A DNA stretch of 64,000 nt from Sebaldella sp. S0638 (GTDB lineage Bacteria > Fusobacteriota > Fusobacteriia > Fusobacteriales > Leptotrichiaceae): contig NZ_JAMZGM010000002.1 in assembly GCF_024158605.1 (NCBI RefSeq), positions 1 to 64,000 on the forward strand, in the 5' to 3' direction. Below are positions 5,265 through 58,321 of this stretch, in pieces. The position numbers and the translations under genes were made by a program. The notes beneath the pieces are model-generated. The model ran no database searches, had not been told where the DNA came from, and saw only the letters and a list, made by a program, of their open reading frames with translations. Numbering within the stretch: the stretch's first letter is position 1; each line of letters opens with the position of its first letter.

Positions 5265-5735
5265 TTATTTTTTTAATTTCTCTCTTAACAAATTGTACGT
5301 GTCTTCACTTGTTTTTACGTTTTTCAGTTTATCCAGAAGTTCTTCCTCTGAAAGAAGATTCATCAGATTTTCCAGCACTTCTATCTGTTCTCCGTTCTTT
5401 TTTACCAGCAGTAAAAATATAAAATCAGTTTCCAGATCATTCAGATCCATTCCCATATCCCTGAATATTATCCTATTTTTATTTCTTACAAAAACTACAG
5501 CTTCTGTATTAATGTGTTCCGGATTGGTATGAGGTATTGCTATTTTGTATTTTCCCAGATCCAGCCCAGTGGGAAATTCCTTTTCTCTCTCTATAATCGA
5601 AGTCAGAAAAGAAAATTTTACATCACCCCTTTCTTCGAGTATTTTATAAATCTTACCAAAAAAATTAATTTGATTATCAGATTCAAAATCGAGAAATATA
5701 AGATCCTCTTTAAAATAATCAAATAAATTATGCAT
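5265..5735 (-). CDS. PTS fructose/galactitol-type IIA component
   Basis: A 156-aa IIA protein of the mannitol/fructose/galactitol family. His69 in the IPHTNPEH motif is the expected phosphorylation site, after the usual FPTGLDLG segment. It takes phosphate from an HPr, perhaps the one encoded at the end of the operon. An AAGGAGG ribosome binding site precedes the start. It is the first transporter gene after the regulator, with an 80-base gap. Confidence 0.9.
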   Translation of the reverse strand: MHNLFDYFKEDLIFLDFESDNQINFFGKIYKILEERGDVKFSFLTSIIEREKEFPTGLDLGKYKIAIPHTNPEHINTEAVVFVRNKNRIIFRDMGMDLNDLETDFIFLLLVKKNGEQIEVLENLMNLLSEEELLDKLKNVKTSEDTYNLLREKLKK

Positions 5736-53571: not shown

Positions 53572-53738
53572 ATCTGACTCCTTTCTGTTTTCAATATTTT
53601 TTATAAAATCTTCAGATTAAATTTATTTGATTAGTTGCATTTTTTCAATTTTTATTATATTTCAATACAATAAATAAAATTTCTACTGCTTATTTTTTTC
53701 AGTTTGTGTATGAAATTTGACATTTTGTTCCTGACTTA

Positions 53739-53767
53739 TTGAAAAAAATGAATATCTATATTATACT
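53739..53767 (+). promoter_or_regulatory. Promoter of the sensor-LytTR-barrel operon
   Basis: TTGAAA (53739-53744), a 17-base spacer and TATACT (53762-53767). Transcription would start near 53774, giving a leader of about 100 bases. No gene is seen in the 300 bases between the CDF gene and this operon. Confidence 0.75.
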
Positions 53768-53871
53768 TAGTTACGAACTGAAAAATAGGTTAATAATTTC
53801 TGTTTGTTAACATTATGCTGTTTGTACAATAACAGCTAAAATATAAATTTATATTATTTAAGGATGATCAT

Positions 53872-55623
53872 ATGAAAAAAATTACAATTTTTGGCTTGTT
53901 ATTTCTGAGTCTTCTTATGCCGTGTCTGCTGATCTTCTCCAGCGACAGGGCTGATACCAATGATTTTATCATTGTTAATACAAGATTTAGAAACAGGCCT
54001 AGAATTTTTACTGACAACATTGTACAAACAAGTTTGTATAAAAACAATCAGGAAATTGAAGGTTTTACTCTGCTTTCAAATACCATTTTTCAGGTAGAAA
54101 AAGGCGATTATATACTAAAAAGTGAATTTGAAAACCAGCATTTTGAACAAAATGTACATAAATCAGACAACATTCCGGAAAATGTTACATTTAATTTTGA
54201 AATGAATGGGAAAATCAGGTTTTTTGAGTTATTTAGCAGAACTGCCACTTTTATCTTATTACTTATGAATGTTCTTATTTATATGAAATCTGATAAAATA
54301 GTAAAGAGAAAGTCACCGCTAATTATTATAACATTTTTATTATTATTATTTAATAATTTTCTTTCTTTTACTAATATTTTCCCCCAGAAACTTCTTTTTG
54401 TATCAGCGGGGATTACTACAATCGCTCTCACCATTTCATTTATATTGTGTTTTTTCTACCTTGTATCCTCTAAGGAGAGAAAATACTGGAAATATATTTT
54501 TATATTTGCAATAATGACTTATTTTTCCTTGATCAATATTCTCTTTTTAGTATCGCCGAATATTCTTATGTATCTGGTAAAATTTCATATAAATACATTA
54601 ATTACTTCTATTAATATTTATGTCGTTTTGGCATATTTTGTAGATTATATGATTCTATTCGTTCCTCTTTTTTGTTTGCTCCGCGGGCTGCAGAAAAATA
54701 AAGATAAAGACTTAAAAAATATGAAAATTTTACAGATATTATTTTTACTTTTATTTTTAATTCTCAATATTGCTACGGAATTTTCTAATTCGGACATTTT
54801 CTTTAATGGTGATATTCTTGAAAATATGCAGTATTCCATTATATTCTGGATTTTATTTTTTAATCTTAATATTGATGACACTGCTAAATACTATATCTCT
54901 ATGCAGCGATGGGTTACTCTGGTTCTAAAATATATCGTCATTATAAACATTATCTATATTATCGGAATAGAGAGCAGTCAATATCGTTTCACTTTTTGGG
55001 TTATAATTTTCTGTATTATCGGTGACATTATATACTTATTAGTCATAAGATTAATGAACAGACTTAATCCAAGATATGATCAAATTTTAGCAAAATTAAA
55101 AGGAATTGATGATATTCACATTTTTGAAAATATATTGGAAAAAGAAATAAGTAAAAAAATAAATCCCAAAACGATTAAATTTATAATTTTCCTTTCTGAT
55201 ACCGAAGAAAAAGAATATATAAGAAATAAGAGCCGCAAAATTATAATTTCCAAAGAAGATTTCAAAAATAAATATGCCAATTTTGATTTTGGAATAAAAA
55301 TATCTGTTGGTACCAACACCTGTATAGCTCTCTTGCTGATAGAACTAAATGAAAGAAAATATCATAATGAAGAAAAATTGTTTTTAAAAGGACTTTCTGA
55401 AGAATTAGTATACTCAGTAAATTATGTTAGAACCTTGCATTTAAGAAAATATATAGAGTCTGTTTCTGACAATAAATATATAAATGAAGAAATAAAAGAA
55501 AACATCCAGTTTATAAAAGATTTTGCGGCTCTTATTTATAATTTAAGCGACGATAAAAAAATAAAAGCTTACTCCAAAACAATAATAGAAAAAGCTGAAA
55601 AGCTTGGTGATAAACATGATTAG
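53872..55623 (+). CDS. Seven-helix membrane sensor without kinase domain (7TMR-like)
   Basis: A 583-aa membrane protein. A signal or first helix covers about residues 3-23. An extracytoplasmic domain of beta strands follows at about 30-118. Then come about seven to nine hydrophobic segments between 120 and 395, and a cytosolic part of about 185 residues with alternating strands and helices (KFIIFLSDTEEK, ISVGTNTCIALLLIEL) that resembles a GAF-type sensor. The plan recalls 7TMR-DISM receptors. No histidine-kinase H-box, no ATP-binding N/G boxes and no GGDEF motif are visible. Its end overlaps the start of a LytTR regulator, so the two are translationally coupled and presumably act as a signalling pair. 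The family is not certain. Confidence 0.7.
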   Translation: MKKITIFGLLFLSLLMPCLLIFSSDRADTNDFIIVNTRFRNRPRIFTDNIVQTSLYKNNQEIEGFTLLSNTIFQVEKGDYILKSEFENQHFEQNVHKSDNIPENVTFNFEMNGKIRFFELFSRTATFILLLMNVLIYMKSDKIVKRKSPLIIITFLLLLFNNFLSFTNIFPQKLLFVSAGITTIALTISFILCFFYLVSSKERKYWKYIFIFAIMTYFSLINILFLVSPNILMYLVKFHINTLITSINIYVVLAYFVDYMILFVPLFCLLRGLQKNKDKDLKNMKILQILFLLLFLILNIATEFSNSDIFFNGDILENMQYSIIFWILFFNLNIDDTAKYYISMQRWVTLVLKYIVIINIIYIIGIESSQYRFTFWVIIFCIIGDIIYLLVIRLMNRLNPRYDQILAKLKGIDDIHIFENILEKEISKKINPKTIKFIIFLSDTEEKEYIRNKSRKIIISKEDFKNKYANFDFGIKISVGTNTCIALLLIELNERKYHNEEKLFLKGLSEELVYSVNYVRTLHLRKYIESVSDNKYINEEIKENIQFIKDFAALIYNLSDDKKIKAYSKTIIEKAEKLGDKHD

Positions 55624-56302
55624 AATAGCACTTGAGGTGGAAGAAGCACTCCGGACACTCCTGATAGAGTATTTTGAGTATGAATTTATTAATACAAAAA
55701 ATTGTAATTTTCAAAAAATCTATTCTGAACATTTTGATCTTGCGATCATTGACTCAATTCATGAAAATCTTGAAAACAGACTATGGGAGTATAAATCAAA
55801 AGAAGTTAAAGTTATCCTTCTCGCGACAGTTTTTGATATTATGCTTCTTCGGGATCTGCTTCATAAAAAACTTATTTATGATTTTCTGAATAAAAAGGAT
55901 TATATGTATATTGACGAAATACTAGAAAATATCACTGGTGAAACTGAGAGAAACTCTGAATTATGTATAGAGGACAGTTTTGTGAAAACTTTTGTTTCAA
56001 TTAATGATATTATTTATATTACCTATTCAAGATACACCAGAAAATCATGTGTGAGACTTTATAACGGAAATGAGTTTTTTAGTAAAAATAACCTTGTGGA
56101 AATAGAAAGGATCCTTTCCCAATATCCTGAATTTGCCCGGGTAGAAAGAAGCAATATAGTAAATCTCAGCAGAATAAAACAGATTAATTACAAAAAAGAA
56201 GTTCTTGTGTTTGATTCTGAAGAAACTTTGCTGCTCAGTAAAAGAACTTTGAAAAACGTGGAAGACATTTGTATTAACAATAAAAAAACTATAAAATTAT
56301 AG
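55616..56302 (+). CDS. LytTR-family DNA-binding regulator with atypical receiver
   Basis: A protein of about 228 aa. The N-terminal 105 or so residues look like a receiver fold: a possible phosphoacceptor Asp lies in FDLAIIDS near residue 46, but the acidic pair normally present at the N-terminus is replaced by a LEVEE sequence. Phosphorylation may be altered or lost. The C-terminal part (about 130-225) is a LytTR DNA-binding domain with VEIERILSQYPEFARVERSNIVNLSRI, the typical LytTR core. I start at ATG 55616, with GGTG six bases ahead; TTG at 55604 would add four residues. The start overlaps the sensor stop by eight bases. It probably controls the barrel gene that follows and perhaps this operon. 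Confidence 0.8.
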   Translation: MIRIALEVEEALRTLLIEYFEYEFINTKNCNFQKIYSEHFDLAIIDSIHENLENRLWEYKSKEVKVILLATVFDIMLLRDLLHKKLIYDFLNKKDYMYIDEILENITGETERNSELCIEDSFVKTFVSINDIIYITYSRYTRKSCVRLYNGNEFFSKNNLVEIERILSQYPEFARVERSNIVNLSRIKQINYKKEVLVFDSEETLLLSKRTLKNVEDICINNKKTIKL

Positions 56303-56312
56303 GAGGAATAAA

Positions 56313-56966
56313 ATGAAAAAAATATTGCTGGCAGTTGCTCTGCTAAGCTGTATTGGATTAGCGGAAAATAATGAAATTACAATAAGAGGCGGATTTTCCG
56401 GAACAAATTTCAACCAAAATGATAACACAGCAACAATAAATCAAAATACTAAAATGTCTGGCGGAGGATTTTTAGGTGTTGAATATGCCAGAGGAGTAAG
56501 CAGTATACCAGATTTAAAATTGGGTGTCGGTATGAGTATTGGAGGAGTCAGCGGCAGCGATGAAGATCTTCCTAATAAATCTGTTAACGGCAAAGCCTTT
56601 ACTAATAACTACAGATATGAAAATTCTGTTATTGTCACTATACCGGTATATGCTCTTGTTAAATATGAATTCTCTAATTCATCATCGGTAACTCCATATG
56701 TAATAGGAAGAATCGGATATGATATAGCTGATACAAAAAATGAGGTAAAATTTTACCCAACTGGTGAAACTAGTGATCTAAAGATCAAGAATGGTTTTTA
56801 CTACGGACTGGGCGGAGGAATAAAGCTCAGCAACTGGAATTTTGAAGTAAGTTATGACAACACTTCTACTAAAACTTCATATTCCGATAAACGTTATAGG
56901 ATTGATGATTCCAAGAAGAATCTTGGAAAAGTTAATTTAGCGGTGGGGTATACATTTAAGTTTTAA
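56313..56966 (+). CDS. Small outer-membrane beta-barrel protein
   Basis: A 217-aa protein with a signal peptide (about 1-17, cleaved near GLAEN). The remainder alternates short amphipathic strands with glycine turns (ITIRGGFSG, FLGVEYARG, VTPYVIGRIGY, GFYYGLGGGIKL) and ends LAVGYTFKF with the C-terminal aromatic of outer-membrane proteins. It is probably an eight-strand barrel of the OmpA/OmpW-like porin type. GGAGGA precedes the ATG, and it begins ten bases after the LytTR gene, so it is in the same operon and a likely output or partner of the sensor. Confidence 0.8.
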   Translation: MKKILLAVALLSCIGLAENNEITIRGGFSGTNFNQNDNTATINQNTKMSGGGFLGVEYARGVSSIPDLKLGVGMSIGGVSGSDEDLPNKSVNGKAFTNNYRYENSVIVTIPVYALVKYEFSNSSSVTPYVIGRIGYDIADTKNEVKFYPTGETSDLKIKNGFYYGLGGGIKLSNWNFEVSYDNTSTKTSYSDKRYRIDDSKKNLGKVNLAVGYTFKF

Positions 56967-57080
56967 GCTTATTGCCTAATTTGAACAATAATGCTTAAAG
57001 CCGGATTTTATATCTCACCCGATATAAATTTTTCATTATTCATTTGCCTTTATCTCTAAGTGCAAACAAACATTTTTTTG

Positions 57081-57110
57081 TATGCCGGATTTATCTCCCG
57101 GCATTTTTTA
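57081..57110 (+). terminator. Terminator of the sensor-LytTR-barrel operon
   Basis: ATGCCGG (57082-57088) and CCGGCAT (57098-57104) with an intervening loop, then a T run on the plus strand. Confidence 0.85.
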
Positions 57111-57191: not shown

Positions 57192-57764
57192 ATGAAATCT
57201 AAATATATAAAATTAGGGCTGCTTCTTCTGCTGCTCCTGTCGCTTTTTTCCTGTAATAATTCAAAAAAGGAAATCAGAGTTATTGTAGATAACTATTATT
57301 CTTCATTGAAAAAAGGTGATTTAGATCAAATGTTAAATCTTTTTTCTTATGATATTAAGCTGTCTTATGACAATCTTTACCAGCAAAACCCTGAATTAAA
57401 GACCTTTACCTCTGACACTCTGAAAATCGTAGGTTCTTCATTTAATTATGAAATAGAAAAGGTAAAAATAAAAGATAATAAAGCAGTTGTAACCATAAAG
57501 GAAACAGGGCTTGATAAAGAAATGCTTGATAAGAAAATTAAAGAATTAACTGCAAAAGAGAGTTTTATACCAAGCAATAACAATGATTTTGAAAAAGCGA
57601 AAAAAGAATTTGTCGATTATCAGATGAATATTCTTTCAAAAGCTTCAAAAGAAGTGAAAGAAAAAAAGACTTCGACAACTACCCTGACTCTGGAAAAGGA
57701 GAAAAACGGATGGGTAATTACCACTAAAAATTTATTAAGAGTTATTCCAAAAGACGGACTTTAA
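57192..57764 (+). CDS. Lipoprotein of unknown function (DUF4878/DUF5105-like)
   Basis: A 190-aa protein with a lipoprotein signal: a leucine-rich stretch and the lipobox LFSC, placing the lipid Cys at about residue 21. The mature part starts with a helix (IRVIVDNYYSSLKKGD) and ends with strands (TLTLEKEKNGWVITTKN), the layout of NTF2-like DUF4878/DUF5105 lipoproteins. GTGAGG precedes the start. It is monocistronic; its role is unknown. Confidence 0.75.
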   Translation: MKSKYIKLGLLLLLLLSLFSCNNSKKEIRVIVDNYYSSLKKGDLDQMLNLFSYDIKLSYDNLYQQNPELKTFTSDTLKIVGSSFNYEIEKVKIKDNKAVVTIKETGLDKEMLDKKIKELTAKESFIPSNNNDFEKAKKEFVDYQMNILSKASKEVKEKKTSTTTLTLEKEKNGWVITTKNLLRVIPKDGL

Positions 57765-57808: not shown

Positions 57809-58321
57809 TTATTCCGCTTCCCCGTGCATATAGTATTTATTTTTATCTTTTGCCCTGTAAAAATCTACTATCTCAAAAGTTTTTACATCTGCATTTCTGA
57901 TTTTTCTACCGCTGTAATACACAGAGTTTTTATCCTTGGCATATCTGTATTTTATATATTCAAAAGTCTCAGGATCAGAGTTTTTTATTTTTACATTATT
58001 ATAATATACATTATTCTTATCTTTAGTATAAAAATCCGATACATAATCAAAAGTGCCGGAATCTGTGCCGGGCAGTTTTTCTCCGTTATAGTATACTGCT
58101 TCCCCGCTCATCAGGTAACCGTTCACAAAATTTCTATACTCCTCGTCCATACCTTCAGTTTCAAAAAATTTTGCCTTATTAGTGTCTATATTCCCTATTT
58201 TCTCAATATTATAATAAATACTGTTTTTATCTCTGCACGGTCCTTCATATATCTCTGCTGCCTGCGCGGAATATACGTTAAAGAATACAAATAGTGCTGT
58301 AACTGCATATAATTTTTTCAT
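57809..58321 (-). CDS. DKNYY-domain exported protein
   Basis: A 170-aa protein with a signal peptide (about 1-21, ending SAQA). The body has repeats of the DKNYY type: DKNSIYYN, GEAVYYNGEKLPGTD, DKNNVYYNNVKIKNSD, DKNSVYYSGRKIRNAD and a last DKNKYYM, each with a following xxxTFE strand. DKNYY proteins are common in fusobacteria and form repeat surfaces of unknown role. It is probably periplasmic or on the outer membrane. It converges with the lipoprotein gene. Confidence 0.88.
   Translation of the reverse strand: MKKLYAVTALFVFFNVYSAQAAEIYEGPCRDKNSIYYNIEKIGNIDTNKAKFFETEGMDEEYRNFVNGYLMSGEAVYYNGEKLPGTDSGTFDYVSDFYTKDKNNVYYNNVKIKNSDPETFEYIKYRYAKDKNSVYYSGRKIRNADVKTFEIVDFYRAKDKNKYYMHGEAE

Follow-up and report, generated by a model that had tools for sequence, protein, structure and literature searches.

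The window analyzed here is a 64,000-nucleotide stretch of Sebaldella sp. S0638 (positions 1 to 64,000 of contig NZ_JAMZGM010000002.1 in assembly GCF_024158605.1, a genome of 4.27 Mb in 292 contigs). Within 53872-56969 of its forward strand it contains three same-strand open reading frames (ORFs), which code for a membrane sensor, a LytTR regulator and a small outer-membrane barrel (Table 1). The ATG of the regulator at 55616 lies inside the sensor gene, whose stop codon ends at 55623, so that the two genes share 8 nt, the same overlap noted in an original prediction made from the letters of this DNA; the barrel ORF begins 10 nt after the regulator ORF. Other parts of that prediction that hold up are the LytTR assignment (44.5 bits against a cut-off of 22.6, the sole Pfam match above a curated cut-off), the terminator (a 46-nt stretch at -11 kcal/mol, z-score -3.2, with 1 of 200 shuffles equally good) and the outer-membrane barrel. 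The barrel-like protein has, by reading, a signal peptide, ends in the phenylalanine usual in outer-membrane barrels and shows a weak full-length match to the NCBIfam model TDE1717 (E 1.6e-4, 21.7 bits against a cut-off of 135).

Table 1. Coordinates in the window of the operon and its associated features
Feature	Position	Strand	Description
Membrane sensor	53872..55623	+	583 aa; N-terminal helix, extracytoplasmic domain ~31-115, ~nine helices, cytoplasmic tail from ~401
LytTR regulator	55616..56302	+	228 aa; ~1-110 receiver-like (predicted pseudo-receiver), 126-217 LytTR DNA-binding domain
Small outer-membrane barrel	56313..56969	+	217 aa; presumed to be a target and to share a transcript with the pair
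C-terminal extension of the sensor, residues 520-583	55429..55620	+	DHp-like helical pair, tentative
Candidate LytTR operator, direct repeat TCAGTTTGT-12 bp-ACATTTTGT	53699..53728	+	10 bp 5' of the -35 box
Promoter-like site TTGAAA-17-TATACT	53739..53767	+	10/12 matches
Intrinsic terminator hairpin	57082..57104	+	7-bp stem, 9-nt loop, T-run

Comparison with other genomes reveals that the conserved unit is the sensor-regulator pair and not the trio. A profile of the sensor matches 27 of 98 Fusobacteriota genomes, the own genome included, and in each of the 23 full-length sensors recognized by hidden Markov model (HMM) and measured, the sensor gene is followed by a regulator gene whose start lies within -17 to +15 nt of the sensor stop (start codons being assigned mechanically except in the window and L070); the other intact sensors of the neighborhood table show the same order. 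Two further pairs, L071 and L072, have in the place of the sensor a membrane protein that the sensor profile does not recognize at E 1e-4. Counted with these two, and after removal of duplicates by hand, the pair occupies 36 distinct places, a figure that leaves out L099 (G052:C90), where a further sensor fragment and a pseudo-receiver LytTR regulator lie at a contig end. The sensor is broken beside a still open regulator frame in L059 and L119, and both frames are broken in L046. Three regulators are orphans without an adjacent sensor: L060, which adjoins a gene for a TonB-dependent receptor; L061, a few genes from which lie a TonB-dependent receptor gene and, by reading, ExbB/D-like genes; and L064. 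In the own genome the window regulator is the sole LytTR protein at E 0.001, though single-LytTR counts of this kind may omit divergent copies, as the Pfam-based genome search missed the LytTR domain of L099. A scan of the genome collection with patterns of the regulator, which passed over many known loci, returned 10 loci, and the only ones that do not bear the name of a fusobacterial genus were L073, with an ordinary receiver by reading, and L074, with LytTR only. The original prediction had proposed looking for the same trio elsewhere; the pair recurs and the third gene varies, so the trio is ruled out as a conserved module by the changing neighbors of the pair and by the nearest relative found of the barrel, which lies away from the pair.

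Family-averaged hydropathy divides the sensor into a helix at the N-terminus, ~85 outside residues (~31-115), about nine further helices and a tail that is placed inside, as the loop charges suggest. The outside domain foreseen in the original prediction stands, and its seven-helix-like core is not supported: hydropathy gives about nine helices, and there is no Pfam match to 7TMR-DISM. Receptors of that class combine an outside domain, a multi-helix core and a cytoplasmic module, and the sensor resembles them in all three; it differs in having no Pfam match and in about nine helices by hydropathy as opposed to seven. Pfam matches to DUF3021/DUF2154 and 5TMR-LYT are likewise absent from the window sensor. 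The HMM check for kinase and GAF domains proposed with the prediction detected no kinase, cyclase or GAF domain in the window sensor with Pfam and NCBIfam models and no such Pfam match in any of 12 family sensors scanned; hence the reported lack of a kinase signature is borne out, and the histidine kinase or cyclase named beforehand as refuting evidence was found in none of the 12. The GAF-like tail is not supported by the searches made: Pfam has no GAF match with the single protein or the 12 family members, no GAF occurs among the PDB profile matches of the tail, and an hhalign comparison with the GAF domains of LytS gives P 0.37. Nor does the family alignment contain a conserved histidine in the tail. 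The outside domain of the window sensor itself has no HMM match, while that of the relative L063 matches the EMC7 β-sandwich and CarboxypepD_reg-like models (best E 1.8e-4, under the curated cut-offs), and a small β-sandwich is therefore the likely outside domain across the sensor family.

The LytTR domain is matched by Pfam in all 13 related regulators scanned, and residues ~1-110 of the window regulator have no Pfam match. We predict by sequence that this N-terminal half is a degenerate receiver. When a family profile of the half was compared with the PDB, four of the six natural sequences found at E values up to 1.3 were response-regulator receivers (6sy9, 1zy2, 3lua and 4uhj; E 0.02-1.3), and in the two alignments shown, those to 6sy9 and 1zy2, the family aspartate falls on the receiver aspartate. 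A profile of the full-length regulator runs through ComE (4cbv) from positions 23 to 222 with E 4.5e-4. The active-site quintet of receivers is incomplete in the family, as tallied over 29 regulators (30 minus L064, which is without the receiver-like domain). None of them retains the first acidic residue (one row being a gap), which is V8 in the window regulator; the second is kept in 22 and is E9 in the window; the Thr/Ser is kept in two. The aspartate is changed in L061 (K), L063 (P), and L071 and L072 (E), three of which adjoin a membrane protein. The original prediction had described this receiver as devoid of its N-terminal acidic pair, which is correct for the first member only.

Pairs of a kinase-less membrane protein and a LytTR regulator have been described as LytTR regulatory systems (LRS), with HdrRM and BrsRM of Streptococcus mutans as examples; 9-bp direct repeats with a 12-bp spacer lie about 10 bp 5' of the -35 box in LRS operons (PMC6193735). 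The region upstream of the window operon reads 9 bp-12 bp-9 bp-10 bp-TTGAAA-17-TATACT, which is exactly the LRS-type spacing. In dinucleotide shuffles the repeat has P = 0.014 at the exact LRS placement, 0.029 when the gap may vary by +/-1, and 0.067 when in addition the period may be 20-22, these values being somewhat favorable since the repeat was spotted by eye ahead of the test. The promoter-like site agrees with the strong promoter of the original prediction, but such sites are no commoner than in shuffles of this AT-rich DNA (25 sigma-70-like sites in the region against 24.2 expected). L047 has a 9/9 repeat with a 21-bp period that ends 11 nt before TTGACA-17-TATAAT (P 0.0003), and the one in L065 lies immediately next to the -35 box. 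Across 18 upstream regions of the family, not all of them independent, 9-bp repeats reach their highest mean z-score at period 21 (0.86, with 0.45 as the next of 23 periods), as do 11-bp repeats (0.69, with 0.40 next).

A link between the two proteins is suggested by their joint divergence. In a mirror-tree comparison over 25 loci, the sensor tail and the pseudo-receiver show a rank correlation of 0.92, the highest of any two domains from different proteins, and a partial correlation of 0.45 (jackknife 0.38-0.49), above the 0.25 between the two halves of the regulator. We favor, with more confidence than doubt, the view that the pair constitutes a phosphate-independent, autoregulated, LRS-like relay from membrane to DNA with an added pseudo-receiver. 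The extracytoplasmic domain and multi-helix core would sense a cue from the envelope or the outside, and the cytoplasmic tail of the kinase-less receptor would contact the pseudo-receiver half of the co-encoded LytTR partner. By analogy with published LRS, this contact would hold the regulator at the membrane in an inactive state as long as the cue is absent. The freed regulator could then bind the direct repeat of 21-bp period 5' of the operon -35 box and turn on its own operon in a positive feedback, probably along with a neighboring gene, which would be the barrel gene in the window and, elsewhere in the family, one for a TraT-type lipoprotein, another barrel or a subtilase autotransporter encoded divergently. 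The weakest step of this proposal would be inhibition, rather than activation, by the sensor, which is carried over from LRS.

As a best reading, the pair would be a variant of LRS, like them in its presumed working but failing two published features, the absence of a receiver and the gene order. It shares with them the two-gene constitution of a LytTR regulator and a membrane protein without a kinase, and the direct repeats with 12-bp spacing ~10 bp 5' of the operon -35 box. It differs in that the membrane gene comes first, as opposed to the regulator gene in the S. mutans type, in the membrane protein, a large receptor that has an outside domain but lacks a DUF3021/DUF2154 match, and in the additional ~110-aa, weakly receiver-like, PF00072-negative domain of the regulator. 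The published account describes LRS regulators as having no receivers and mentions LRS-like operons of Bacteroides that begin with the membrane gene; its main text does not name Fusobacteria, Sebaldella or Leptotrichia (PMC6193735). Other genera of the same family also have the canonical LRS layout, in which a gene for a ~146-aa LytTR protein is followed by one for a small membrane protein (L037:1360-2241, L038:286-1167 and L041:545-1457); the membrane protein of L037, the one tested of these, is a DUF3021 protein by Pfam. With LytS/LytTR systems such as BtsSR (PMC10653868), the pair has in common a multi-helix receptor with a cytoplasmic tail and the receiver-plus-LytTR layout of the regulator, but it lacks a DHp/ATPase kinase as well as 5TMR-LYT and GAF matches, and its receiver site is degenerate. 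The regulator likewise resembles the bacterial pseudo-receiver regulators covered in PMC12632262, in which a receiver-like domain short of active-site residues is fused to a DNA-binding domain; here there is no Pfam receiver match (13/13), and, except in the three orphans, there is a dedicated membrane partner. The departure from ordinary two-component systems announced in the original prediction is less novel than it appeared, because kinase-less membrane protein and LytTR pairs were already published as LRS.

The C-terminus of the sensor may retain a trace of its ancestry. A comparison profile built from seven HisKA segments of the genome's own kinases can be aligned with the terminal 64 residues of the sensors of the window, L045 and L063, and in the window the extension aligns as 'EIKENIQFIKDFAALI' to 'ELKTPltiikgyaeiL', with a glutamate where the phospho-histidine would fall. 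The window extension scores 7.1 bits, with 95% of 400 shuffles below 4.2 and the best shuffle at 8.2, and those of L063 (12.7 bits) and L045 (10.0) beat all 400 of their shuffles; the L072 and L120 extensions show no DHp resemblance by this profile and shuffle test. In a control set of 376 segments from these loci, the two top scores belong to the extensions of L063 (first) and L045 (second), seven segments reach 7.1 bits, and ranks three to five are other tail parts of the same sensor family (8.8-9.7 bits), which weakens the specificity for DHp. Pfam finds no HisKA match in the extension and no ATPase domain. Tentatively, the extension may be a relic of a kinase docking (DHp) domain. In a wider scenario, which is conceivable but to which we would give less than an even chance, a former histidine-kinase receptor lost its ATPase and phospho-histidine, retained a relic of the docking helices in window-type sensors and binds a partly degenerate receiver, such that a phosphate-free contact relay became a pluggable switch for genes of outer-membrane proteins and surface proteases in Fusobacteriota.

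Several observations weigh against the proposed relay. The direct contact between tail and regulator is deduced from sequence comparisons and the sign of its effect from published LRS, and the partial correlation of the tail with the LytTR domain (0.41) nearly equals that with the pseudo-receiver (0.45). The window repeat, TCAGTTTGT / ACATTTTGT, matches at just 7/9 positions at its 21-bp period, and several loci are without a 21-bp-period repeat, the z-score being below 0 in L045, L050, L105 and L110. The kinship of the N-terminal half with receivers is weak: neither PF00072 (Response_reg) nor another Pfam receiver model matches any of the 13 regulators scanned; in the PDB the family profile matches best a designed repeat protein (E 9.7e-9, four weak repeats) and second best another design; and hhalign against conventional receivers gives P 0.042 over 36 columns with a probability of 1.2%, in the correct register around the aspartate (cross-controls P 0.33 and 0.42). 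As to targets, the window barrel is presumed to be one from operon position alone, because in G002 its nearest relative found (62%) neighbors a TetR-like gene, and the 3.65 kb read there contain no pair. At 8 of the 36 pair loci the place of an envelope protein is taken by an SBP_bac_3 amino-acid-type ABC cassette, and 12 have none of the neighbor classes described below or run off the contig. Moreover, the classes track sensor clades, so that the 16 envelope-type neighbors are non-independent events. Lastly, the phosphorylatable aspartate is kept in 25/29 regulators (with Glu in 2) and a Lys/Arg is present in 29/29 (Lys 11, Arg 18), which leaves room for phosphorylation of the regulator by an unlinked kinase or by small phosphodonors.

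This last point leads to the alternative that survives best, which we nevertheless regard as unlikely: the regulator would be a decayed two-component regulator in which D46 is still phosphorylated by an unlinked histidine kinase or acetyl phosphate, with the membrane protein merely modulating it, for instance as a phosphatase. Besides the retained residues, the DHp-like helices tentatively placed at the ends of the window, L045 and L063 sensors would suit such a role, and PMC12632262 describes the conserved histidine as dispensable for the phosphatase activity of HisKA proteins. It is at odds with the loss of the first acidic residue and of nearly all Thr/Ser, and with the lost or replaced aspartate in four regulators, three of them beside a membrane protein. 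The kinase complement of the own genome also argues against it. There are no LytS-class His_kinase domain matches, and nine of the 13 HATPase_c places adjoin a Response_reg place of their own, whereas the rest are, by reading, GyrB-type (two), MutL-type (one) and CheA-like (one). Seven of the nine read as HisKA kinases, while L140 and L141 have no HisKA motif by regular expression; HATPase_c_5, the AgrC class, matches two places only, both among the nine. Signaling without phosphotransfer, as the original prediction envisaged it, thus fits the absent kinases and the degenerate site, with the widely kept aspartate speaking against it.

To a second alternative we attach only a small probability, namely that the output of the membrane protein is unrelated to the regulator, being that of a transporter or an unrecognized enzyme, and that the regulator answers to its own level or to a small ligand. 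The roughly nine helices without a recognized fold and the three LytTR relatives without an adjacent sensor (L060, L061 and L064) would be in keeping with it, as would control by expression level of a constitutively active pseudo-receiver, which is among the models discussed in PMC12632262; the placement of the regulator immediately 3' of the sensor in 23/23 measured cases and the joint divergence of tail and pseudo-receiver point the other way. That the sensor is instead a co-activator required for DNA binding is improbable: sequence leaves the sign of the effect unfixed, but the membrane proteins of published LRS inhibit (PMC6193735), and regulator frames stay open in L059 and L119 despite a broken sensor, which may reflect recent decay only.

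The genes beside the pair were classified with Pfam on one representative of each class and by phmmer for the rest. An envelope-type neighbor is found at 16 of the 36 pair loci: a divergent subtilase autotransporter (Peptidase_S8 plus Autotransporter), which we take to be of the type named fusolisin, at seven; a TraT lipoprotein at four; an OMP_b-brl barrel at two; MipA at one; the window barrel at one; and, in L063, a subtilase plus a barrel just 5' of the pair. The L063 subtilase comes from a genome in a different family of the order and may represent a second association. The window barrel is itself a member of a large family, with 11 matches in the own genome and matches in 80 of the 98 genomes of the phylum.

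If the proposed relay is correct, LRS would come to include, in fusobacteria, systems with a large receptor and a receiver-like domain, and the surface subtilases and further envelope proteins of these bacteria would gain a candidate local regulator. Among the matches listed from the open-licence literature, judged by title and abstract opening, there is no account of the sensor-regulator pair and no local regulator of fusobacterial surface subtilases or envelope proteins. A LytTR family protein is upregulated in F. nucleatum, with no partner described in the passages concerned (PMC13210348). A 2025 perspective calls the on/off switching of bacterial pseudo-receivers a mystery (PMC12632262). 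With a pseudo-receiver-like regulator and one dedicated membrane partner in a single operon, 36 loci and a candidate operator, this question of switching becomes directly testable.

Other features of the neighborhoods merit mention. In the distant genome G034 (L063:795-4085), separate Peptidase_S8 and barrel genes precede the pair, as if an autotransporter had been split in two. The pairs L058, L062, L107, L109, L110, L112, L114 and L118 lie directly 5' of the SBP_bac_3 ABC cassette, and seven of these eight are situated 3' of three genes for 2-oxoacid-oxidoreductase-like subunits, L062 running off the contig. In L119 (G074:C1:3152000-3166000), where the sensor has decayed, no frame like the OMP_b-brl barrel flanking L048 and L054 was recognized, and a joint loss of sensor and neighbor gene is possible. 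The barrel at L048:9169-9843 is divided between two open frames of 82 and 119 aa and may be broken in that genome. The window operon is followed on its 3' side by genes for a SnoaL-like lipoprotein at 57192-57764 (+) and a DKNYY-repeat protein at 57809-58321 (-). The syntenic place in G003 (L057), between SnoaL-like lipoprotein and cation-efflux genes, is without the trio and has at 5329-5463 a residual sensor-like match of 46 residues (56% identity, E 1.3e-5).

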